Source: Candidatus Desantisbacteria bacterium CG1_02_49_89 (lineage in GTDB: Bacteria > Desantisbacteria > UBA1551). From it: a stretch of DNA of 15,540 nucleotides. How positions within the stretch are numbered: the stretch's first letter is position 1; each line of letters opens with the position of its first letter. Positions 3,121 through 11,825 of this stretch are shown here, piece after piece. The notes beneath the pieces are model-generated. The model did no database searches. It saw nothing but the letters and a program-made list of their open reading frames with translations, and was not told the DNA's origin. The stretch covers positions 1 through 15,540 of the forward strand of contig MNUP01000030.1 in assembly GCA_001871075.1 (NCBI GenBank), written 5' to 3'. A program made the position numbers and the translations under genes.

Positions 3121-3142
3121 TGTTATTGTTCGGCAATAACAG
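3120..3142. other. 9-bp hairpin spanning the stop codon of the large secreted protein
   Basis: CTGTTATTG (3120-3128) and CAATAACAG (3134-3142) are perfect inverted repeats around five bases. On the coding strand they cover the last codons (VIAEQ) and the TAA stop at 3125-3123. No T-run follows on the minus strand, so it is not a standard terminator. It could be an mRNA-protecting stem or chance. Confidence 0.4.
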
Positions 3143-6100
3143 TGAAACGGAGACGCTCACCGAAGGCGCAGCGACCGTCAGCGGACATTTCAAGTTCGAC
3201 AACACGCGGGCTAAAGCCCGCGGCTACCGTCCCCTCACCTCTATCCTCTCCCGCCCGCCCAGCAAGATTGGCGGGCAAGCCAGGGGGAGAGGATAAAACA
3301 AAATCTGAAAGGACGGCGTCGGCAAGGTATGGAACGTCTGCCTTGATCTCAATCTTAATTTTGATCTGAGAATTAGTGGTTGACACGAGGAACACCCCGC
3401 CCTTCGCGCCTTTCGCGTTCGAGGGAGCGATCCATCCTGCCTCGCCGTTATTCCCTATGACAGCGGATGCCAGCACAGGTTCATTTGCTTTCACAGTATA
3501 TCTCTTCCCGTTCTCAACTTCCTTCCACCCGTCAGCGGTCTTTATTTTAAACCGCATAAACATCGCGTTCAGGTACTTGGGCGGGTTTGTTCCGTTGTAT
3601 TCTACGTTGCCCACCGCGATAAGCGGGGTGTTCAGGGAATTCGTTCCCGTGCCTTGTGTCCTGAAGCCGCATACCTTACCGGACTTCATTGACGAGAAAT
3701 ATTCGTCCTTTATCTCCTCGTAGAACGCCTTGTAACCGCGGCAGTATTTATCCCTGTCAAATTCAAACCACTTGACAGGCTTTGGGATCTCCCTGGAAGC
3801 CGTGATCTTCGAAGAATTCTGCATTATGGCTTTTCCCGCGGGCCGCAGGTTCCTGTCAGGCGGCGCGATGCCGTAATCGCTTTTCTCGTCCACCCGGTAA
3901 CCTCCCGGATACCACCATCCGAACCCGCCGTTCGCGCCGCTCTCGTACATCATCCGTAGTATATCCGTCCACAGGCCTCCCTGTTTTTCCATAAGCCCCT
4001 GGTCGTAGTCAAAAGTGCTGCCGGTCCATATCGACATCCCGAATTCCGCCCATATCACGGGTAAAATCGGGGCGGCGTAACGGGCATACGTCACGGTAAA
4101 CAGCCCGCCCTTCACCTTTTCCCAGTCACCGCCGTTCAGCCCGTATCCCTCAGGGCAAAGCATATCCACTGCCTTTGCAATGCCGCGGAAATCGTAGCTA
4201 AAAGAAGAAGACGGCACCCCCACGTCTCCTGCAACGTTCATCCTGAAACTCACAAGGTGGTTTGGGTCAATGTCCTTTATTTTCCTGTTTATGTCCCAGT
4301 ATTTCCTGCACAGGAAATCGTCGACAAACCTCCTGTATGAGCAGATATACCGCAGATGTTCGCCTTCGCTGTCCATCTCCTTGTCAGACGGGGCAGGCAG
4401 GCGCGAGCCCTGAGACACGGAGATACCCCAGTCCTTTTCCGCGTTCTCAACACCGCCGTATTTTTCAATGACCCAGTCCTTCCACTGCTTTTCAAACCCC
4501 TTCCTCCCTGCCTGGTTCCCGTAACCGCCGTTGTATGTCCCCCAGACCGGCTCCCACGCAACGTCATACGCGAAAAGCACGTCGTTAAGGTCAAGCCTCG
4601 CGAACTTTATCACCTGATAACTTTCGCCGATATAGCAGTTCACGTGCATGCCGTATTTCCCGCACCTGCGCATGAAATCCAGCGCGTTCCTGATGCTGTT
4701 CCTGTCACCCGCTGAAATGCTCAGGGCAGTCACCCCCCATTCCTTCAACTGGCGCAGGTCCGGCTCAACCAGCTCAGGGTCATAGTTACCGTAGGTGAGC
4801 CAGTGAGACCAGTATTCATCCCTGCTCATCCCGGAAATATACAAAGGCCAGTAATTCACGCCGAAAGGATACCATTTCTGGCCGCGCAGGTAGAAATCCC
4901 CGTCTTTCGCCGTAACGAATTCCTTCTTTGAATCAGGGGTCCATGGCAGGATCCCCAGCTCCTGGACAAGCACGTCAATGACCTTTCCGCTCTCAAGAAG
5001 TTCAGTTCGAATATCGTACGCTTCCGCGCTGAATCTGTCGACTTCCCACACTGTTTCCAGGGAATCTTTCTCCCCTGCCGGGATCTTCATTGCCTGTTCC
5101 TGTTTGAATACTGCCGTGGTTGACTTCTTCGGAAAGACAGAGATGCGCGCTGTCACATTTTTTTCCTCTTGGCTGAAGTTCCCGATAAGCGCGCTGATCT
5201 TCACGGAAGTTTCATCCGTAAAAACACTGAATTCCTTTGAGCCCGCTTTCAGGATGTAGGCACCATCCCTTATACGGTCAATAACGCCTGTAAGCGCGGA
5301 CATAAGTGCGGGATTTTTCAGGAATTCTTCCTTCGGGATGCTGAATGCGCCCCATAAAGACCTGTTGTATTTGCCTGAATGGCTGATATAAAGGTAGGCA
5401 AGCGTGCCGCGCGTCTCACCTGATTTGTCCTTCGCGTAGATGAGCGGGACCCACCTTGTTTTCATGCTCTGCTGAAATCCGACTCCCCGGGGCCTGTGAA
5501 CGCAGGACCAGGATTGCTGGGGCGGATTGAATTTCAGGTCAGGCTTAATAAACGCCTGTTCCGGCTCAACCGCGTAACCGGTAATGTCTTTCAGCTGGTA
5601 ATGCTTGTAAAGCGGGGTCATTGCCTCAAGCTCCATCTCAATCTCAGGCCCTGCTAACTGGAATGGATTTTTCATGGCGCCTATCTCGTCTATCCAGAAC
5701 GTGTGCGGGCCGGCTTCAACCGCGTTTGTCTGTCCGAACGCGAGCCCTATCATAAGCTGGGCAGCGTTCTCCGGCTTGAGCACGTCTCTGGCTCCGCCCC
5801 TTCCCTTACTGGGGTTGTCAGGCCAGTATTTGAAATCCTTAGGGGAAAGCATGAAAAATTTCCATTTCGTCTCAAGATTAATTATAGCGAACCAGCGCGA
5901 CTTATCCTCTTCTGTCCATTCGACCAGCAGCTGCTTTGTTTTTTCATCTCCTTTTGCCCAGAACGATATGATATTGCATCCGGGCGGGAACGGGTTATCG
6001 ATCTGCTGAAAATAACAGTCCCATCCCTGCAGGTCTTCCACGTCAACCCTGGCGCTTTGCTTTGTGCCGCCGCACCCCGTCCCCTCGGCTTCTATGGCGC

Positions 6101-7079
6101 TCTGGCTGCCGTTCGAGGAGTGGACCCACCCGTCAACCCCGTCCTCAAAATTGAAAAGAACCGTCCTGTCAGGGGAAGAGGAAAGATATTCCTCAAGCTC
6201 GGGCCTTGTCATCCACTTCACCCCGCCTTTCGGGTCTGCCTGCTTCCACGCGGTATCCCTGAACGGCGGGCCTTCAAAACACAGCATGCTGCCGCCTGTT
6301 TTCAGGAACGACATCAGCGGCAACTGGGCGTTCGCGGGAAAAACTTTTGAATGCGGCAAAAGCAAAAGGAAAAAGTTATCGGTTGAAAGTATGGACTTGT
6401 CTGAAAGCTGTTCGCCGTCAAGGAAAGTTACTCCGAAACCTGAGCCGCGCAGCTCTTTCGCCATCGCATCCGGAAAACTCATGTCCGCATCCCTGAATTT
6501 TTCCTTAAGTATCGCGATACTTCCCTTCCTACCTTTTTCGACACTGATTAACACAGATGGACTCTGATTTTCAGAAGATACAGATTTTTCAACCTGGGAC
6601 CCAGCATCTTTTTTGACACTGATTTCCGCAGATTCAGATTTCTTGTCGGATGCCTGGGCAGCGGATGCCTTAACTATCGGTATCTGGTCAGTGAAAACAA
6701 TAGGGGCAAGCGGGTTCTGCCAGTCTTCGCCCAGCCACACAGCCATAATAAGCGCCTCCTTCTCTGAGAGTTTCGGGGCAACGAATTTGAATTTCTTCTC
6801 GCCCTTGCCCGAAACCTTTTCCTTATAAGCCTTCAGCACGCCATGTTCAGGGTCTTTCATCTCGCAGTTAATGGAGGCGGAGCCTTCGGGGATCCCGAAC
6901 TTCGCGGTCACCTCGAACTGCTTTCCTTCCTCTATCGTGTCAGGGGTCTTTGAGAACTCGCAGACAGCGTCCTCTGCCCAGCAGACCGTGTAAGGTGTAA
7001 CGTGTAACGTGTAAGGCAGGCAGAAACTAAAAACTAAAACCAAAACAGGCACAAAAAACCACAGAAGAGTTCGCTTCAT
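3123..7079 (-). CDS. Secreted multidomain glycosidase-like protein (1318 residues, clan GH-A type barrel)
   Basis: Predicted exported glycan-active enzyme. The ATG at 7079 follows AAAGGAG (about 7085-7091). Residues 1-36 form a signal peptide (MKRTLLWFFVPVLVLVF..., likely cut near CWA-EDA). Then come a beta-sandwich domain (38-136); a Ser/Lys-rich linker (137-183); a Rossmann-like domain resembling the amidotransferase-type domains of glycosidases (185-275, ELRGSGFGVTFLD, FLKTGGSML); a jelly-roll carbohydrate-binding-like domain (308-468, FEDGVDGW, WIDEIGA); further beta domains (about 475-715); a TIM barrel (728-1090); and a C-terminal beta region. In the barrel, AWEPVWG places a likely acid/base at E843 and VIWAEFGM a likely nucleophile at E1012. 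I cannot assign a GH family. Residues 1263-1292 are encoded by palindromic repeats and look inserted. The N-terminal half is paralogous to the gene at 7611. Confidence 0.8.
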   Translation of the reverse strand: MKRTLLWFFVPVLVLVFSFCLPYTLHVTPYTVCWAEDAVCEFSKTPDTIEEGKQFEVTAKFGIPEGSASINCEMKDPEHGVLKAYKEKVSGKGEKKFKFVAPKLSEKEALIMAVWLGEDWQNPLAPIVFTDQIPIVKASAAQASDKKSESAEISVKKDAGSQVEKSVSSENQSPSVLISVEKGRKGSIAILKEKFRDADMSFPDAMAKELRGSGFGVTFLDGEQLSDKSILSTDNFFLLLLPHSKVFPANAQLPLMSFLKTGGSMLCFEGPPFRDTAWKQADPKGGVKWMTRPELEEYLSSSPDRTVLFNFEDGVDGWVHSSNGSQSAIEAEGTGCGGTKQSARVDVEDLQGWDCYFQQIDNPFPPGCNIISFWAKGDEKTKQLLVEWTEEDKSRWFAIINLETKWKFFMLSPKDFKYWPDNPSKGRGGARDVLKPENAAQLMIGLAFGQTNAVEAGPHTFWIDEIGAMKNPFQLAGPEIEMELEAMTPLYKHYQLKDITGYAVEPEQAFIKPDLKFNPPQQSWSCVHRPRGVGFQQSMKTRWVPLIYAKDKSGETRGTLAYLYISHSGKYNRSLWGAFSIPKEEFLKNPALMSALTGVIDRIRDGAYILKAGSKEFSVFTDETSVKISALIGNFSQEEKNVTARISVFPKKSTTAVFKQEQAMKIPAGEKDSLETVWEVDRFSAEAYDIRTELLESGKVIDVLVQELGILPWTPDSKKEFVTAKDGDFYLRGQKWYPFGVNYWPLYISGMSRDEYWSHWLTYGNYDPELVEPDLRQLKEWGVTALSISAGDRNSIRNALDFMRRCGKYGMHVNCYIGESYQVIKFARLDLNDVLFAYDVAWEPVWGTYNGGYGNQAGRKGFEKQWKDWVIEKYGGVENAEKDWGISVSQGSRLPAPSDKEMDSEGEHLRYICSYRRFVDDFLCRKYWDINRKIKDIDPNHLVSFRMNVAGDVGVPSSSFSYDFRGIAKAVDMLCPEGYGLNGGDWEKVKGGLFTVTYARYAAPILPVIWAEFGMSIWTGSTFDYDQGLMEKQGGLWTDILRMMYESGANGGFGWWYPGGYRVDEKSDYGIAPPDRNLRPAGKAIMQNSSKITASREIPKPVKWFEFDRDKYCRGYKAFYEEIKDEYFSSMKSGKVCGFRTQGTGTNSLNTPLIAVGNVEYNGTNPPKYLNAMFMRFKIKTADGWKEVENGKRYTVKANEPVLASAVIGNNGEAGWIAPSNAKGAKGGVFLVSTTNSQIKIKIEIKADVPYLADAVLSDFVLSSPPGLPANLAGRAGEDRGEGTVAAGFSPRVVELEMSADGRCAFGERLRFTVIAEQ
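3203..3228. repeat. REP-like palindrome (GGGCTAAAGCCC core) inside a coding region
   Basis: CGCGGGCT (3205-3212) and AGCCCGCG (3215-3222) are perfect 8-bp arms around AA. The same layout, 8-bp arms and a 2-base loop, recurs at 7509-7526 and 11808-11825. This copy lies within the frame of the large secreted protein and encodes part of AAGFSPR near its C terminus. Palindromes like this are often moved by REP-associated tyrosine transposases; none is visible here. Confidence 0.65.
3231..3299. repeat. CCTCACC/CTCTCCC palindromic repeat inside a coding region
   Basis: Outer arms ATCCTCTCCC (3243-3252) and GGGAGAGGAT (3285-3294) pair perfectly; an inner stem CCCGCC/GGCGGG lies between them. The element begins CCCCTCACCT and ends GGATAAAA. 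A relative with the same outer arrangement lies between genes at 15344-15401 (CCTCACCCT ... GGGGAGAGGATAAA). Here it stays in frame and encodes the residues SSPPGLPANLAGRAGEDRG of the secreted protein. Confidence 0.65.
6540..6634. repeat. GACACTGATT microrepeats encoding an inter-domain linker
   Basis: GACACTGATT occurs at 6540-6549, followed by AACACAGATG, and again at 6615-6624, followed by TCCGCAGATT. Both lie in the segment coding for the Ser/Lys-rich linker (about residues 148-182) between the first beta-sandwich and the Rossmann-like domain. The same word appears twice in tandem at 11026-11045 in the linker of the paralogous gene. Confidence 0.6.
6987..7041. repeat. GTGTAAGGTGTAACG microrepeat within the signal-peptide codons
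   Basis: On the plus strand, variants of CGTGTAA(C/G)GTGTAA run from 6987 to 7014, followed by GGCAGGCAGAAACTAAAA. On the coding strand this gives LPYTLHVTPYTVC, the stretch between the hydrophobic core and the predicted cleavage site. A near-identical block occurs at 11504-11548 in the paralogous gene. Confidence 0.55.
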
Positions 7080-7110: not shown

Positions 7111-7223
7111 TAACGATTTTACAACGATTTCCGGAGAGTCATTAACCCGGTTCTGACTCGTAGGTCCCTGTGTTAAGTTCCAGTTTCACCGGAACTACAG
7201 GGATAACGATGTTACAACGATTC
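7111..7223. repeat. Direct repeats flanking dual-hairpin element copy B
   Basis: TAACGATTTTACAACGATTT (7111-7130) and TAACGATGTTACAACGATTC (7204-7223) match at all but two positions, and a third partial copy CAACGATTCTCAACGATTC follows. They bracket the two-hairpin element at 7136-7202. They could be a target-site duplication, but the word is itself a tandem microrepeat, so this reading is uncertain. Confidence 0.5.
7136..7202 (+). repeat. Two-hairpin element, copy B
   Basis: Hairpin 1 is GAGTCA (7136-7141) with TGACTC (7154-7159) around a 12-base loop. Hairpin 2 has an outer stem CCCTGT (7166-7171) with ACAGGG (7197-7202) and an inner stem AGTTCC (7176-7181) with GGAACT (7191-7196), with a four-base bulge on the 5' side. 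It lies upstream of the secreted protein starting at 7079 but points the opposite way. Copy A (11576-11644, minus strand) agrees at roughly four in five positions by hand alignment, and three stem pairs change on both sides. Confidence 0.75.
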
Positions 7224-7238
7224 TCAACGATTCTCAAC

Positions 7239-7394
7239 CTATCGTTTTATATACATCGGGCGTTTCGCCATCTTGCGGATCGAGTCCCTTTGCATTTCCC
7301 GCCGCATCTGTTCGCGCAGCTTCCTCATATCAACAAGCTGCTTCTGTTTCACCGGATCCTTTGCCGCAGGTGCCTTGTCTTTTGACTCTTCCAT
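7239..7394 (-). CDS. Small basic charged protein (51 residues), function unknown
   Basis: The frame is open further upstream (to 7508), but that extension runs through repeat sequence. The ATG at 7394 has a purine-rich site, GGGAAAGGAC, about seven bases before it, which decides the start. The product begins MEESKDKAPAAKDPVKQKQL and continues with a helix-prone, Lys/Arg/Met-rich stretch (residues about 16-45), ending RPMYIKR. It has no signal peptide, no membrane segment and no cysteine. I recognise no family. The strong basic charge could suit nucleic-acid or membrane-surface binding, but that is a guess. It sits between the two paralogous secreted proteins, 159 bases upstream of one and 216 bases downstream of the other. 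A non-coding reading remains possible. Confidence 0.5.
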   Translation of the reverse strand: MEESKDKAPAAKDPVKQKQLVDMRKLREQMRREMQRDSIRKMAKRPMYIKR

Positions 7395-7610: not shown

Positions 7611-10600
7611 TTATTGAATAGTTACTGCTTCGCCTTCAAGCAGGTCGAGGATGAGGAGGTCGCCGTCTTTTTTGGAGCCGGCATTCCTGCCGGTAATTTT
7701 GGAGCCGGATTTGAGAGTTGAAAGGAATTTTGAAGGGGATATTTTTACCTGAAGGTCGCATGTGGACATAATTTTAAGTTTTCCGCTGCCCCAGTCCAGC
7801 ATAACGTTGGCGGGTTTTCCGCCCTTGAACTGGAGGCCATCCGACTTGTATTCAGTGTTGCCGATAAAGAGGGCTTTGTCTCCCTTGAAAACATAACCTG
7901 TGCCGATCATGTTCTGCGCCTGCGCGGTTTCCATTGTCCCTGTTGGGCCTGCCCTGTTGATATATTCTGAAAGGAACTGGGTCGCGTGCGCGATCGGTTT
8001 CCTGTGCCCGAAAGGAGTGCCGTCATAGTAGAAGAACCCGAACCTTTCCTCGTAGAAATTGTCGTCCCCGCGCCAGGCATTGGGATTGTCGTTCAGCATC
8101 CACTTGTAACTTCCTTCATACCCCCTGCTAAGCGGGTAAAGGTAATGGATCATTTCACCCACGGCTGAAGAGTAGAAATCCAGGTATCTTGAACCCATCA
8201 TAATGCCGTTCGAATACCCGAACTCACCGAAGCTGACAGGTTTTTCAGGCCATACAGCCGCTATACGGTCAAACGTAGTTATGTTCTGAATGACCGAATC
8301 GTATGAGAAAGGCCTTACGTAAACATGGTGCGAGATAAAATCCAGCTCAGAAGCGCACGGGAACGCGGAGAACGGAGTATTGAACCCGACTGTGACCAGG
8401 TGGTTCTTGTCAACCTCCCTTATCGCATCCTTGTTAAGCTTAATCCAGATACGGAAGCTCTCGTCACCCGCTTTCACGACTTCATCGTCCAGCATCGGGA
8501 CTTTGTTATCCTTCAGCTTGGGGAAGGTGGTCCACTCGCCCAGGTTCTCGCCTACGTATATACCGAACTTATTGACTCCGTCCTGAATGTCCGTAATAGG
8601 AAGTTTTATACCCGCCGGATATTTTTCGGCAATAATAGCGGGAAGCCACGGCTCGTTCTGGATGTCGTAACCGAGCACCATTGGTTCGTCCTTAAGGTGG
8701 GCGCATAGCTTCCTGATGCACTCCTGCGATTTTTCCATCTGCCCGTAGCGTGCAAGGTGCACGAGCAGGTGTATGTCATAGCGCCTCGCGAATGTAAGCA
8801 TAATATCGATCTTGTGGAAATCGTCCTTCATAATGTCGTCAGCAAGCTTATAAAGGAAGAGCCTGAAGGTATTTATCCCTGCCTCGTGCGCCTTCCTGAA
8901 ATCCAGCTCCATCTTGACCGGGTCAAAATATTCCTTCCACTCGTTCCAGCACCTGTCAAACCAGCCGTGGTAGTTCGAGCCGATGCAGAAGAACCTTTTT
9001 CCGTCAGGATAAACCAGGTGTTTTTTGTCAGCGCTTACTTTCATGAAACCTTGTTGCACTGGCGGCATCGGCGCGACATCAAACATATGTTCGGCGATAT
9101 CGGATACACCCTTGCCGCTCTCTCTCAATACCACCCTCAGCATATAGCTTCCCGCGTCCATAGGGGTAACCCAGCCGCATTCAACTGCCTGGTTCTTTCC
9201 GGGCTCAAGCCCGATTTCAAATGCTTTACTGAATACAGTTTTGCCGTCCTTCACAACGCTTATCTCAGCATTCGCCTGTTTTGCCGCAGATCCAAGGTTG
9301 CATACCCGTGCAGAAAACAAGGCTTCTTTACCCGGTTCGTAAGTAAGCCGGCCCGGACTTATGCTTCCCAAAAACAAACCATTTTTCATCGCTCCGATTA
9401 TTTTTGAAAGCGCGGGAATGAAGGACGGGTCCTTGTAAAACCCGGGATCCTTTATCCCGAAACAGGCAATGACCGAGTTTTTCATAGCCTTGCTGTAATT
9501 TACAAGCATAGACGCGATAGCGCCCTTGTATCTGCCATATTTATCATAGGCGTTGATAAGCGGCACGTACCTGCCGCCTGTCTGGTTCGGATACGCAATG
9601 GCAAAATCCCCGCCTGTTACGCCCGCAAGGTTAAGCCCGGATTCAAGCAGCGCCTGCGCGGAATTTATTTCCGCCTTCGCGACATCATTAATAACATAGG
9701 CGCTGTAGGCGTCGTTGAAAACAGGGACCTTCATCCTCGCGGTAAGGTCCATTTTCGGGTAGGGATTCTTCGCAATGCCCACCTCGTCTATCCAGATCTC
9801 GTGCTGGCCGCCCTCCACCGAAGTGTGAGAATACGCAAGCCCGATGCTGATAATGGACGCGTTCTCGAGTTTCACCGCGTCGCCCTTGCCGCCCCTTCCC
9901 TTGCTGGTATTATCCTTCCAGTACGCGAAGGCCTCGGGCAGGAGGCAGTAGTGTTTCCATTCGGTTCCCATGTTAACCGTGGCGATCCAGCGCGAACCGT
10001 CCCGCTCCCCGATCTCCACGGCGATCTGTTTTGTCCTCTGAGACCCTTTTGCCCAAAAGCAGACAAGGTCCTGGCCTTCGGATATGGAGCCGTCTATGCC
10101 GGCGCTCCAGTTGTCCCACCCGGTAAGTCCGGGTATGAATATTTTAGCTCCTTTGCCCTTGTATCCCTTGTCGGCCTCCAGGCTTCCCGGGGTTGAAACG
10201 TCGTTAGTTGCCCTGCGCCACCCCGAAGGCTCGTCCTCAAAATCAAAAAGCATGTTCTGGGGCTGGACCGATGAGATCGTTTCCTCTATCTGGGACTTTG
10301 TCATCCACTTGCCGTTAAAATTCCAGACAAGCTCTTTGAACGCGTACCCTCCAAGCGTCACGAGGTCGCCGCCCCTGGTCAAAAACCTCAGCAGGGAAGC
10401 GGAAGCGGAAGCCGGAAAATAATCCGCACCTCCGGCAATTACCAGGCAGTCAAAATTCTCTATATTAAGTATGGAGCTATTCCGTATTTTCTCGCTGTCA
10501 AGCACTGTCACGCCGAAACCGGATCCGCGCAGGCCCGTAACAACAGCGTCCGCAATGCCTGTTCCATCCATTCCGGGAAGGCTGTCCCTGAACACCGCGA

Positions 10601-11678
10601 TGCTCCCGTTCTTCCCTTTTTCCACGTCAGGTTTCCCTCCGGGCATACCGCTCATCTCCTTTCCGGTTATCGGTATCGGCTCTGAAAACTGTATGGGCGC
10701 GAGCGGTTGCTGCCAGTCCTGCCCGAGCCAGGCGGCGATCACCACCTGCCCGGTTGAAAGGACCGGAGCAGTAAAAGAAAAAGTCGCCTTTCCTTTTCCT
10801 TTAACTTCCGGCGACTCTGATTTCAGAACGTTGTTGGACATATCCTTCATTTCGCAGTTCAGCCTTGCTTTTCCGGCTGAGGAAGGAATGCTGTATTCCA
10901 CTGTTGTCATAAATTCCTTTCCTTCCACCACCTCGCCTGGCAGGTCTGCGATGGCGCAGGTTGCTTCCTTGCCGGGAGGCTCCCCGGATTCCTTAACTTC
11001 GGATTTCGAAAAAATCTCTAATTTTGACACTGATTCGACACTGATCTTACTGGTTTCTTCAGACTTGGAAGCTTCCTTCTTTTCTTCCTTCGGCTGGGGC
11101 GCTGATCTTTTCTCCACAACAGGGATAGGATCCGAGAATTTTATGGGGGCAACCGGGTTCTGCCAGTCTGTGCCGGCCCAGCAAGCCATGACTATTGCCT
11201 CCATCTGGTCCATTTTCGGCGCTACAAAAGTAAGGGTTTTCTCGCCCTTGCCCTTTACCCTCGGGGACTGGGCTTTCAGGACATTGACGCTGTCCTTGTC
11301 CTTCATCTCGCACTGCAGGATCTGCTGGCCCGCGTCCTCGGGAATGTCGTATGAAACCGTGACCTCGAACTTCTCGCCTTCGCCCACCTCGGACGGCAGC
11401 TTTGTGAATTCACAGGAAGCGTCTTCAGCCCAGCAAACCGTAGAAAGTGCCCACCCTGCGCAAAGGCAGGGCGAGGTCTCGCCCCGATATTGATCGGGGC
11501 GGATAAGGTGTAAGGTGTAAGGCAGGCAGAAACTAAAAGTTAAAACCAAAGGAATCACCACGGAGGCACGGAGTCCCCTACAGCTCCGGAATAAAATCGG
11601 AGCTAAACGCAGGGACCTTCGGGTCAGAACGGAGTTAATGACCCTACGGCACGGAGAAAACACAGGTCTTTTCTTCAA
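7611..11678 (-). CDS. Secreted multidomain glycosidase with GH5-like catalytic barrel (start uncertain)
   Basis: Predicted exported endo-acting glycan hydrolase. The frame is open to 11732 (GTG), but that end is microrepeat. I prefer the TTG at 11678, which has GAGG five bases upstream and gives MKKRPVF, 1355 residues. Domains by that numbering: degraded signal region (1-87); two copies of a beta-sandwich (88-187 and 239-337; both hold NCEMKD-like and WQ(N/Q)P(V/L)API motifs) joined by a Lys/Glu/Ser linker; Rossmann-like domain (357-445); jelly-roll sugar-binding-like domain (477-640); beta-sandwich (765-870); TIM barrel (878-1240); short beta tail. DIQNEPW places the acid/base at E1009, ISHHVY supplies the usual active-site His/Tyr, and SFGEFG gives the nucleophile E1152, all GH5-like. 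Everything before the barrel parallels the protein at 3123-7079. Palindromes interrupt the signal region and the tail in frame, so export efficiency is uncertain. Confidence 0.8.
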   Translation of the reverse strand: MKKRPVFSPCRRVINSVLTRRSLRLAPILFRSCRGLRASVVIPLVLTFSFCLPYTLHLIRPDQYRGETSPCLCAGWALSTVCWAEDASCEFTKLPSEVGEGEKFEVTVSYDIPEDAGQQILQCEMKDKDSVNVLKAQSPRVKGKGEKTLTFVAPKMDQMEAIVMACWAGTDWQNPVAPIKFSDPIPVVEKRSAPQPKEEKKEASKSEETSKISVESVSKLEIFSKSEVKESGEPPGKEATCAIADLPGEVVEGKEFMTTVEYSIPSSAGKARLNCEMKDMSNNVLKSESPEVKGKGKATFSFTAPVLSTGQVVIAAWLGQDWQQPLAPIQFSEPIPITGKEMSGMPGGKPDVEKGKNGSIAVFRDSLPGMDGTGIADAVVTGLRGSGFGVTVLDSEKIRNSSILNIENFDCLVIAGGADYFPASASASLLRFLTRGGDLVTLGGYAFKELVWNFNGKWMTKSQIEETISSVQPQNMLFDFEDEPSGWRRATNDVSTPGSLEADKGYKGKGAKIFIPGLTGWDNWSAGIDGSISEGQDLVCFWAKGSQRTKQIAVEIGERDGSRWIATVNMGTEWKHYCLLPEAFAYWKDNTSKGRGGKGDAVKLENASIISIGLAYSHTSVEGGQHEIWIDEVGIAKNPYPKMDLTARMKVPVFNDAYSAYVINDVAKAEINSAQALLESGLNLAGVTGGDFAIAYPNQTGGRYVPLINAYDKYGRYKGAIASMLVNYSKAMKNSVIACFGIKDPGFYKDPSFIPALSKIIGAMKNGLFLGSISPGRLTYEPGKEALFSARVCNLGSAAKQANAEISVVKDGKTVFSKAFEIGLEPGKNQAVECGWVTPMDAGSYMLRVVLRESGKGVSDIAEHMFDVAPMPPVQQGFMKVSADKKHLVYPDGKRFFCIGSNYHGWFDRCWNEWKEYFDPVKMELDFRKAHEAGINTFRLFLYKLADDIMKDDFHKIDIMLTFARRYDIHLLVHLARYGQMEKSQECIRKLCAHLKDEPMVLGYDIQNEPWLPAIIAEKYPAGIKLPITDIQDGVNKFGIYVGENLGEWTTFPKLKDNKVPMLDDEVVKAGDESFRIWIKLNKDAIREVDKNHLVTVGFNTPFSAFPCASELDFISHHVYVRPFSYDSVIQNITTFDRIAAVWPEKPVSFGEFGYSNGIMMGSRYLDFYSSAVGEMIHYLYPLSRGYEGSYKWMLNDNPNAWRGDDNFYEERFGFFYYDGTPFGHRKPIAHATQFLSEYINRAGPTGTMETAQAQNMIGTGYVFKGDKALFIGNTEYKSDGLQFKGGKPANVMLDWGSGKLKIMSTCDLQVKISPSKFLSTLKSGSKITGRNAGSKKDGDLLILDLLEGEAVTIQ
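7670..7708. repeat. In-frame CCGGC palindrome with 12-bp flanking direct repeats
   Basis: TTTTGGAGCCGG occurs at 7670-7681 and again at 7697-7708. Between and overlapping them, CCGGC-ATTCCT-GCCGG forms a small palindrome. The repeat period is 27 bp, nine codons, so the frame is kept: the protein reads GSKITGRNAGSK. This looks like a short insertion with target duplication near the C terminus of the GH5-like protein. Confidence 0.6.
11026..11046. repeat. Tandem GACACTGAT microrepeat in a linker
   Basis: GACACTGATTC (11026-11036) is followed directly by GACACTGATC (11037-11046). It encodes ISVESVS in the linker between the two N-terminal beta-sandwich domains, the same position type as the copies at 6540-6634 in the paralogue. 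Confidence 0.55.
11454..11500. repeat. Cluster of three overlapping hairpins inside the signal-peptide region
   Basis: CCCTGC/GCAGGG (11454-11459 with 11466-11471), GGGCGAG/CTCGCCC (11469-11475 with 11478-11484) and GCCCCGAT/ATCGGGGC (11481-11488 with 11493-11500) form consecutive, overlapping stems. On the coding strand they encode about 20 residues (IRPDQYRGETSPCLCAGW) lying between FCLPYTLH and STVCWAEDA. The paralogue at 7079 has FCLPYTLHVTPYTVCWAEDA without that stretch, so it is an in-frame insertion. Confidence 0.7.
11565..11656. repeat. 9-bp direct repeats flanking dual-hairpin element copy A
   Basis: GGCACGGAG occurs at 11565-11573 and 11648-11656, exactly bracketing copy A of the two-hairpin element. 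The interval between them is 74 bases, against 73 bases between the repeats around copy B. This suits target-site duplication, although the word is part of a common microrepeat (CTCCGTGCCTCCGTGG). Confidence 0.5.
11576..11644 (-). repeat. Two-hairpin element, copy A
   Basis: Read on the minus strand: hairpin 1 is GGGTCA with TGACCC (11644-11639 and 11626-11621); hairpin 2 has outer stem CCCTGC with GTAGGG (11614-11609 and 11581-11576, one G-T wobble) and inner stem AGCTCCG with CGGAGCT (11604-11598 and 11588-11582). Relative to copy B, pairs G-C/A-T, C-G/T-A and C-G/T-A change on both sides. It lies at the 5' end of the GH5-like gene and the reading frame passes through it. Confidence 0.75.
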
Positions 11679-11687
11679 AGTTACCTC
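11679..11687 (-). promoter_or_regulatory. Candidate ribosome binding site for the GH5-like gene
   Basis: GAGGTAAC reads leftwards just before a TTG codon at 11678, with GAGG five bases from it. The longer GTG start at 11732 has no such site. This is the main reason for the chosen start; it still requires the two-hairpin element to be translated. Confidence 0.4.
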
Positions 11688-11718
11688 ACAAAAATTACTT
11701 TTTAAACTACTTTTGCAA

Positions 11719-11749
11719 CCACGAATTAGCACGGATTTCCACGAATTTC
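11719..11749. repeat. CCACGAATT/CACGGATT microrepeat
   Basis: CCACGAATTAG, CACGGATTT and CCACGAATTT follow one another here, a degenerate tandem. The longest open frame of the GH5-like gene would begin inside it, which speaks against that start. Confidence 0.55.
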
Positions 11750-11807
11750 AAGCTTGTAAGCTTTGTAAACTACACTTGAAACCAAAGGTGAACACGGGTT
11801 AGATACA

Positions 11808-11825
11808 TCAGGGCTGAAGCCCTGA
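11808..11825. repeat. REP-like palindrome TCAGGGCT-GA-AGCCCTGA
   Basis: Perfect 8-bp arms (11808-11815 and 11818-11825) around GA, sharing the GGGCTRAAGCCC core with the palindrome at 3205-3222. It sits between the ligase stop and the GH5-like gene. No T-run follows, so it is not called a terminator. Confidence 0.65.

Follow-up and report, generated by a model that had tools for sequence, protein, structure and literature searches.

A self-nesting family of two-hairpin repeats dispersed in a Candidatus Desantisbacteria genome

Two copies at the 5′ ends of paralogous genes

The 15,540-nt stretch of DNA analysed here (the window) carries two copies of a two-hairpin element, each at the 5′ end of one of two related genes, which raises the question of whether this is a structured RNA common to the two genes or a piece of DNA that arrived twice. 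Copy B lies at 7131..7203 on the plus strand (covariance-model match 90.9 bits, E 1.9e-17; also recovered in the BLAST family search) and copy A at 11575..11649 on the minus strand (81.6 bits, E 2.6e-15), and both are complete; a sequence-only reading had located them at 7136-7202 and 11576-11644, which is right apart from about 5 nt more on the 5′ side. Copy B is of the subtype with an AGTCA/TGACT stem in hairpin 1 (H1) and TGTTAAG in the bulge region of hairpin 2 (H2). By alignment and pair counts its H1 (7131..7164, +) reads CC-[GGA]-GAGTCA..TGACTC-[GTA]-GG, i.e. a GNA/GNA internal loop closed by 2 bp with a 6-bp stem on top, and its H2 (7165..7203, +; pair counts, 51.4 bits with an H2 model) consists of an outer stem TCCCTGT/ACAGGGA, a 4-nt 5′ bulge GTTA and an inner stem AGTTCC/GGAACT. 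Copy A is of the GGTCA/TGACC H1 subtype, with a GTA/GAA internal loop in its H1 (11616..11649, −; alignment) and a 4-nt bulge in its H2 (11575..11615, −; 48.5 bits). The copies share 77% local identity over 70 positions, agreeing with the earlier hand count of about 53 of 67, and the differences described between them were all present, namely A-T/G-C in H1 and two T-A/C-G in H2 as compensatory changes and a single G-C/G-T wobble near the H2 bulge. On either strand, the predicted fold of each copy surpasses that of shuffled controls, whether computed with RNA parameters (z -2.8 to -3.4) or with DNA parameters (z -2.7 to -3.9).

Copy B lies upstream of, and antisense to, a gene for a secreted glycosidase-like protein (3123..7079, −), the product of which gave no match in a Pfam search; copy A lies in sense inside the nominal 5′ end of the gene at 7611..11732 (−), the true start of which is probably downstream of copy A, as judged from the signal-peptide alignment with its paralogue. 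The two genes are real paralogues (32-49% identity), as had been proposed, but the proposed link between element and genes did not stand: given the opposite gene-relative orientations, the different subtypes and the different target repeats (AACGATTT| for copy B versus CTCCGTG| for copy A), the shared 5′ position is a coincidence, and the copies were not inherited along with the gene duplication. A riboswitch or cis-regulatory RNA common to the paralogues is rejected in view of orientation together with the copy number and nesting described below. The left flank of copy B (7112..7130, +) is an AACGATT-type short repeat; AACGATT recurs to the right of the insert (7206-7240), and the copy B junction re-aligns at 90% to an uninterrupted AACGATT repeat elsewhere (locus L014). 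The left flank of copy A (11650..11662, −) ends in ..TTCTCCGTG|, and further copies have gone into its target repeat at the identical base, CTCTGTG|element|ACTCCGTGCC. A named relative was sought through the neighbouring protein and none was found. Separately, a palindromic repeat (GCCCCGATCAATATCGGGGC..) lies in frame at 11460-11520 (−), at the signal-peptide end of the 7611-11732 gene, and adds about 18-20 residues to the product relative to the paralogue.

Size, structure and covariation of the family

The genome searched comprises 2,481,651 bases in 150 contigs and is 93.5% complete. With copy B as BLAST query it gave 38 matches (best non-self E 1.4e-25), and a covariance model built from 31 copies, a search that the sequence-only reading had proposed, gave 114 matches at E<1e-3 with covarying stems and variable neighbours; sequence was read in stretches around the matches, and copies too diverged for the models are missed by this count. 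That reading was to be given up if no further copies turned up or if their stem changes were not compensatory; copies proved abundant, and their stem changes compensatory. The family makes up ∼0.3% of the genome (114 x 72 nt in 2.48 Mb), with 101 of the 114 copies between predicted ORFs. Between co-oriented genes 46 copies are antisense and 28 sense (p 0.047), and strand is weakly biased with respect to local GC skew (66:44, p 0.045), so that either gene or replication direction may be the source of the weak antisense bias.

Outside this genome, the complete element was absent from 58 other genomes searched, an exact pattern search of the genome_contigs collection gave no match, and the element was not found in the plasmid and phage collections. 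The viral_contigs collection yielded four pattern matches, two of which scored 11.7-12.3 bits with the covariance model and the rest nothing, and the sole match in Rfam 15 was a chance msiK match (E 0.75) away from the element. The earlier statement that the layout belongs to no named family thus holds for Rfam and every collection searched, and the element is restricted to one genome among those searched, the host phylum being represented by two genomes in the genome resource used. In an order-mate genome the complete element was not found; two weak H2-like bulged hairpins there (E 0.003-0.006; L146 and L147; GACCCCTGCGTTAGTTTTC..GAAAACTGCAGGGGTC) suggest an older layer of the family common to the order.

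The element is ∼67-77 nt long, has the ends CCG...CAGGG plus A/G, and on its sense strand consists of H1, C-C-[G N A]-G-5 bp-loop-5 bp-C-[G N A]-G-G, directly adjoined by H2, which has a 7-bp outer stem (T/C)CCCTG(T/C), a 4-nt GTTA-like bulge in the 5′ arm, a 5-6-bp inner stem and the end CAGGG(A/G). G3, A5, G30 and A32 are invariant in the 31 copies and both N positions can be any base, while the pairs closing the GNA/GNA loop covary in 96 copies (C-G 82, T-A 10 and other 4 for one; C-G 91, T-A 4 and other 1 for the other). GNA/GNA loops with sheared G-A pairs are known from studies of both single-stranded DNA and RNA. Each hairpin carries the tetranucleotide GNAG at its 5′ foot, with all four bases occurring at N and GTAG accounting for 51 of 96 first feet (53%) and 31 of 96 second feet (32%); by covariation, the two GNAG regions are each other's pairing partners across H1. 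Among the 31 copies, double compensatory changes were found in 14 of 24 pairs (shuffle mean 7.2) and in 70 cells (19.2 in shuffles), neither value being reached by any of 500 shuffles; 96.2% of the cells are paired, versus 28-44% when the partners are slid by 1-3 columns, and RNAalifold, unprompted, recovered the same structure (15 of 24 pairs).

Strong covariation alone is not evidence of RNA, and here G-U intermediates are missing and mismatches are symmetric. In 96 distinct copies, 755 of 768 H1 pair-cells (98.3%) are Watson-Crick even though the stems vary over all bases, with 6 G-T and 5 A-C, and H2 contains 5 G-T and 6 A-C when its terminal pair (24 T-G) is left out because the outer base lies at the target boundary. 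Pairing changes almost always lead from one Watson-Crick pair to another, as at one H1 position with 50 T-A, 45 C-G and 1 T-G. Since pairing preserved in RNA should tolerate G-U intermediates and not A-C, this symmetry removes the argument, drawn earlier from the single wobble, for an RNA or for the sense strand, and favours preservation of stem pairing at the DNA level. A weaker strand argument survives, in that the invariant GNA/GNA loop (TNC/TNC on the antisense strand) and the H2 bulge take that form on the sense strand only.

The two hairpins are exchanged as modules. H1 stems include AGTCA, GGTCA, AGCCA, CGCCA, AACCA, AATCA, GCCCA and an unrelated stem CCCGCCACGATTATTGGCGGGC, the CCCGCC module of which recurs inside H2 in either orientation, and many different H2 inner stems occur. 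A model of H2 alone found 112 sites, and most of the 19 stretches where the first model had missed H2 lack H1; in many of these its place is taken by a mini-hairpin, TCCCTAAAGGA, or by a GNAGA foot alone. Seven loci (L148, L149, L154, L155, L160, L162 and L163) show a second family architecture, in which the TCCCTAAAGGA mini-hairpin is followed by an H2-type hairpin within arrays of AATCACCGTAATCA-like short repeats.

Insertion sites and nesting

The ends of the element are constant, and the flanks vary between copies but fall into target types, i.e. ..CGTG|GAAATCCGTGG; ..CTCTGTG|(A)ACTCCGTG; ..TTTCGT|; ..CCGA|TCGG palindrome tips; AACGATTT|; TTAACCTT|; CATTGCGA|; and the H1 loop of other copies, CCCAG|CTCTGG, so that some copies sit in short repeats or palindrome tips. 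Unfilled versions of targets exist elsewhere in the genome, as for C30:12270 (L094:1160-1209), C143 (L119), C50:29788 (L087) and C123:10845 (L109). Moreover, when the element was removed in silico, the joined flanks at 14 of 114 copies matched a further member of the family, or the hairpin of one, at >=30 bits in the same-strand orientation; no junction reached that score in the opposite orientation, and among 1140 random junctions 7 did so. Two of the 14 (C135:22660 and C119:19301) are more plausibly a tandem neighbour and the right half of an interrupted copy, respectively, and a further copy nested on both sides (C135:24279) stands outside the count. For a family occupying ∼0.3% of the genome, nesting is thus far above chance.

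H1 loops are entered cleanly and without loss; where the target is an H2 tip or the bulge, 4-10 nt of loop are missing, although the unfilled relatives could simply have had different loops. At symmetric palindrome tips either orientation relative to the outer hairpin occurs (weak opposite-strand matches). H1 type is the strongest correlate of the left flank (z 10.3), and H2 that of the right flank (z 7-8); this association ignores shared descent and may mean either that target recognition is divided between the two ends, each for its own side, or that flank and hairpin were copied together or descended together. The element lacks terminal inverted repeats, and a duplication of the target was not evident. 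The sequence-only reading, in proposing that a folded strand is under selection or recently mobile, was right, and its mobility half is well supported by the number of copies, their differing neighbours, the unfilled sites and the nesting: the dispersed repeats form a small mobile DNA family that has spread by insertion into other repeats and into each other.

Candidate movers and known relatives

Short palindromic repeats are common, and their way of moving is largely inferred. The present genome contains one IS200-type tnpA and at least seven RAYT-like Y1 genes, and the reading we favour, tentatively and at a little below an even chance, is that of lineage-specific, non-autonomous mobile DNA whose folded single strand is moved by a Y1 enzyme supplied in trans. 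The head-to-tail pair of unlike hairpins, with the GNA/GNA base of H1 and the 5′ bulge of H2, would be recognised in its folded single-stranded form, the most likely enzyme being a trans-acting Y1 (HUH) tyrosine transposase of IS200/RAYT type; landing sites would be short repeats, palindrome tips and loops of the element's own relatives, with H1 perhaps reading the left side of the target and H2 the right. Constant ends, same-strand nesting, unfilled sites, the Watson-Crick stems of H1, the GNAG feet and the presence of Y1 genes argue for this reading, as do the left-flank/H1 and right-flank/H2 pattern and the weak strand bias. Counted against it are that none of the Y1 genes examined has a nearby copy, that the N of GNAG is free, that the GNAG regions are paired across H1 instead of being free as guides, and that the loss of 4-10 nt of loop at tip insertions is, to our knowledge, no feature of IS200/605. 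The element was not found within 1.5 kb of any of the Y1 loci examined, 8 of 10 (best covariance-model score 11 bits, E 0.44), and a cognate transposase in cis was discarded on this ground.

In its behaviour the element resembles REP-type repeats and, as far as the account in PMC4478555 goes, mitochondrial double-hairpin elements (PMC3733652, PMC4478555). GTAG-REPs, and REPINs/BIMEs with their RAYT (TnpA-REP), are likewise dispersed, mostly intergenic short hairpins in ∼100 copies (PMC2817692, PMC3116915, PMC3733652, PMC6006769), and the 5′ tetranucleotide, bulged stems, subfamilies with complementary changes, RAYT-like genes in the genome and palindrome settings are common to both; IS200/605 and REP hairpins carry such a foot tetranucleotide and some RAYT-like subclasses have no REP nearby (PMC6006769), and the T. 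roseum GTAG-23 and A. variabilis GTAG-15 REP families lie inside palindromes (PMC3733652). However, GTAG-REPs are defined by 5′ GTAG or GTGG beside the hairpin in >90% of members (PMC3733652, PMC6006769), whereas here the N of GNAG is free and the GNA regions pair across H1; REP dimers are mainly head-head or tail-tail, whereas the basic unit here is two unlike hairpins head to tail; and the element inserts inside its own hairpins and flanks no RAYT at those 8 of 10 loci. Dispersed extragenic copies were thus found, but tag conservation, a cognate RAYT in cis and inverted dimers were not, and the family is therefore not filed as REP.

Non-autonomous IS200/IS605 derivatives resemble the element in having a left and a right hairpin with 5′ tetranucleotide, no target duplication and subfamily flank specificity, but differ in that here the hairpins abut directly and the guide-like bases are paired. 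With respect to the fixed tetranucleotide target of IS200/IS605, copies of one subtype have the same left flank, which goes with H1, shared descent being possible. The IS200 copy on contig C83 has hairpins unrelated to H1/H2 and no ends in common with the element; its GNAG hairpins were set aside as relatives, the motif being short and no H1/H2 sequence being shared. In integron attC sites, RYYYAAC/GTTRRRY core boxes pair at the base and act with IntI, whereas the GTTAAG of the element lies, by eye, in the H2 bulge outside the pairing box. The fungal mitochondrial double-hairpin elements and GC clusters (Paquin et al. 2000, as cited in PMC4478555) are, in the account given there, also small, mobile, geneless two-hairpin elements with stems kept by complementary change, which merge and shuffle; unlike them, the present element is on a bacterial chromosome, has defined target subtypes and nests at fixed bases, and a common origin is not claimed. 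It is a new family, set apart among palindromic mobile repeats by its head-to-tail unlike hairpins, GNA/GNA loop and self-nesting.

Unlikely, yet to be taken seriously, is that no transposase is involved and that template switching at replication, with micro-homology-driven gene conversion among short repeats and palindromes, spread the hairpins. This would also keep both arms perfectly complementary, and would account for the scarcity of intermediates between Watson-Crick pairs, the swapping of modules between arms and orientations (CCCGCCACGAATATTGGCGGGC as H1 or within H2), loops replaced instead of cleanly entered at palindrome tips, flanks going with their adjacent hairpins, and a chimeric site (C47:29487) with the left flank of one target type and the right flank of another; the exact constant ends (CCG..CAGGG) look instead like the work of an enzyme with defined ends, as do recurrent insertions at an identical base of a given target, lossless entry into H1 loops among them. 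That the family is a MITE of some other enzyme (a DDE transposase, an IS110-type, XerC/D, or the single reverse transcriptase) we regard as distinctly unlikely: two full-length tyrosine recombinases and one partial reverse transcriptase are encoded, but the element has neither terminal inverted repeats nor an obvious target duplication, and the recombinases, one of them beside a topA-like sequence, look like an ordinary chromosomal pair. A structured RNA (riboswitch, sRNA or terminator-type) acting on downstream genes would fit the covariation and the intergenic positions and is nevertheless highly improbable in view of both orientations in tandem gene pairs and in the window, G-T being no commoner than A-C, nested copies and the lack of an Rfam match.

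A more specific proposal, rather improbable as a whole, is a self-targeting hairpin transposable element, in which two unlike GNA/GNA-held hairpins would serve as exchangeable left and right ends, each with its own target-side specificity, and subfamilies would evolve to enter loops and bulges of older members, giving branched nested DNA; the mover could be Y1-type in trans or an unknown enzyme. The family amounts to ∼100 natural experiments in one genome, with fixed ends, filled and unfilled sites, target subtypes tied to hairpin subtypes and self-insertions, and allows a test of whether the choice of target is set by the sequence of the hairpins, in the way that guides set it in IS200/605.

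Several other features of the genome were observed. Two RAYT-like genes on contig C23 (L048 and L049) are flanked by different palindromes (TGAGTTACGGAGACTGCGTAACTCA..), which looks like a second, more conventional REP/RAYT system, and the other Y1 loci examined are flanked by none of note; a related palindrome, ACTCAGGGCTTCAGCCCTGA, lies in the window at ∼11800-11823 on the minus strand. The gene at L046:1453-2463 (+) encodes a RAYT-like protein whose C-terminal part matches models of DnaA (TIGR00362, E 5e-9). The partial reverse transcriptase (L142), cut by the end of contig C119, carries GIPIGNLTSQ and YMDD motifs and is possibly part of a diversity-generating retroelement.
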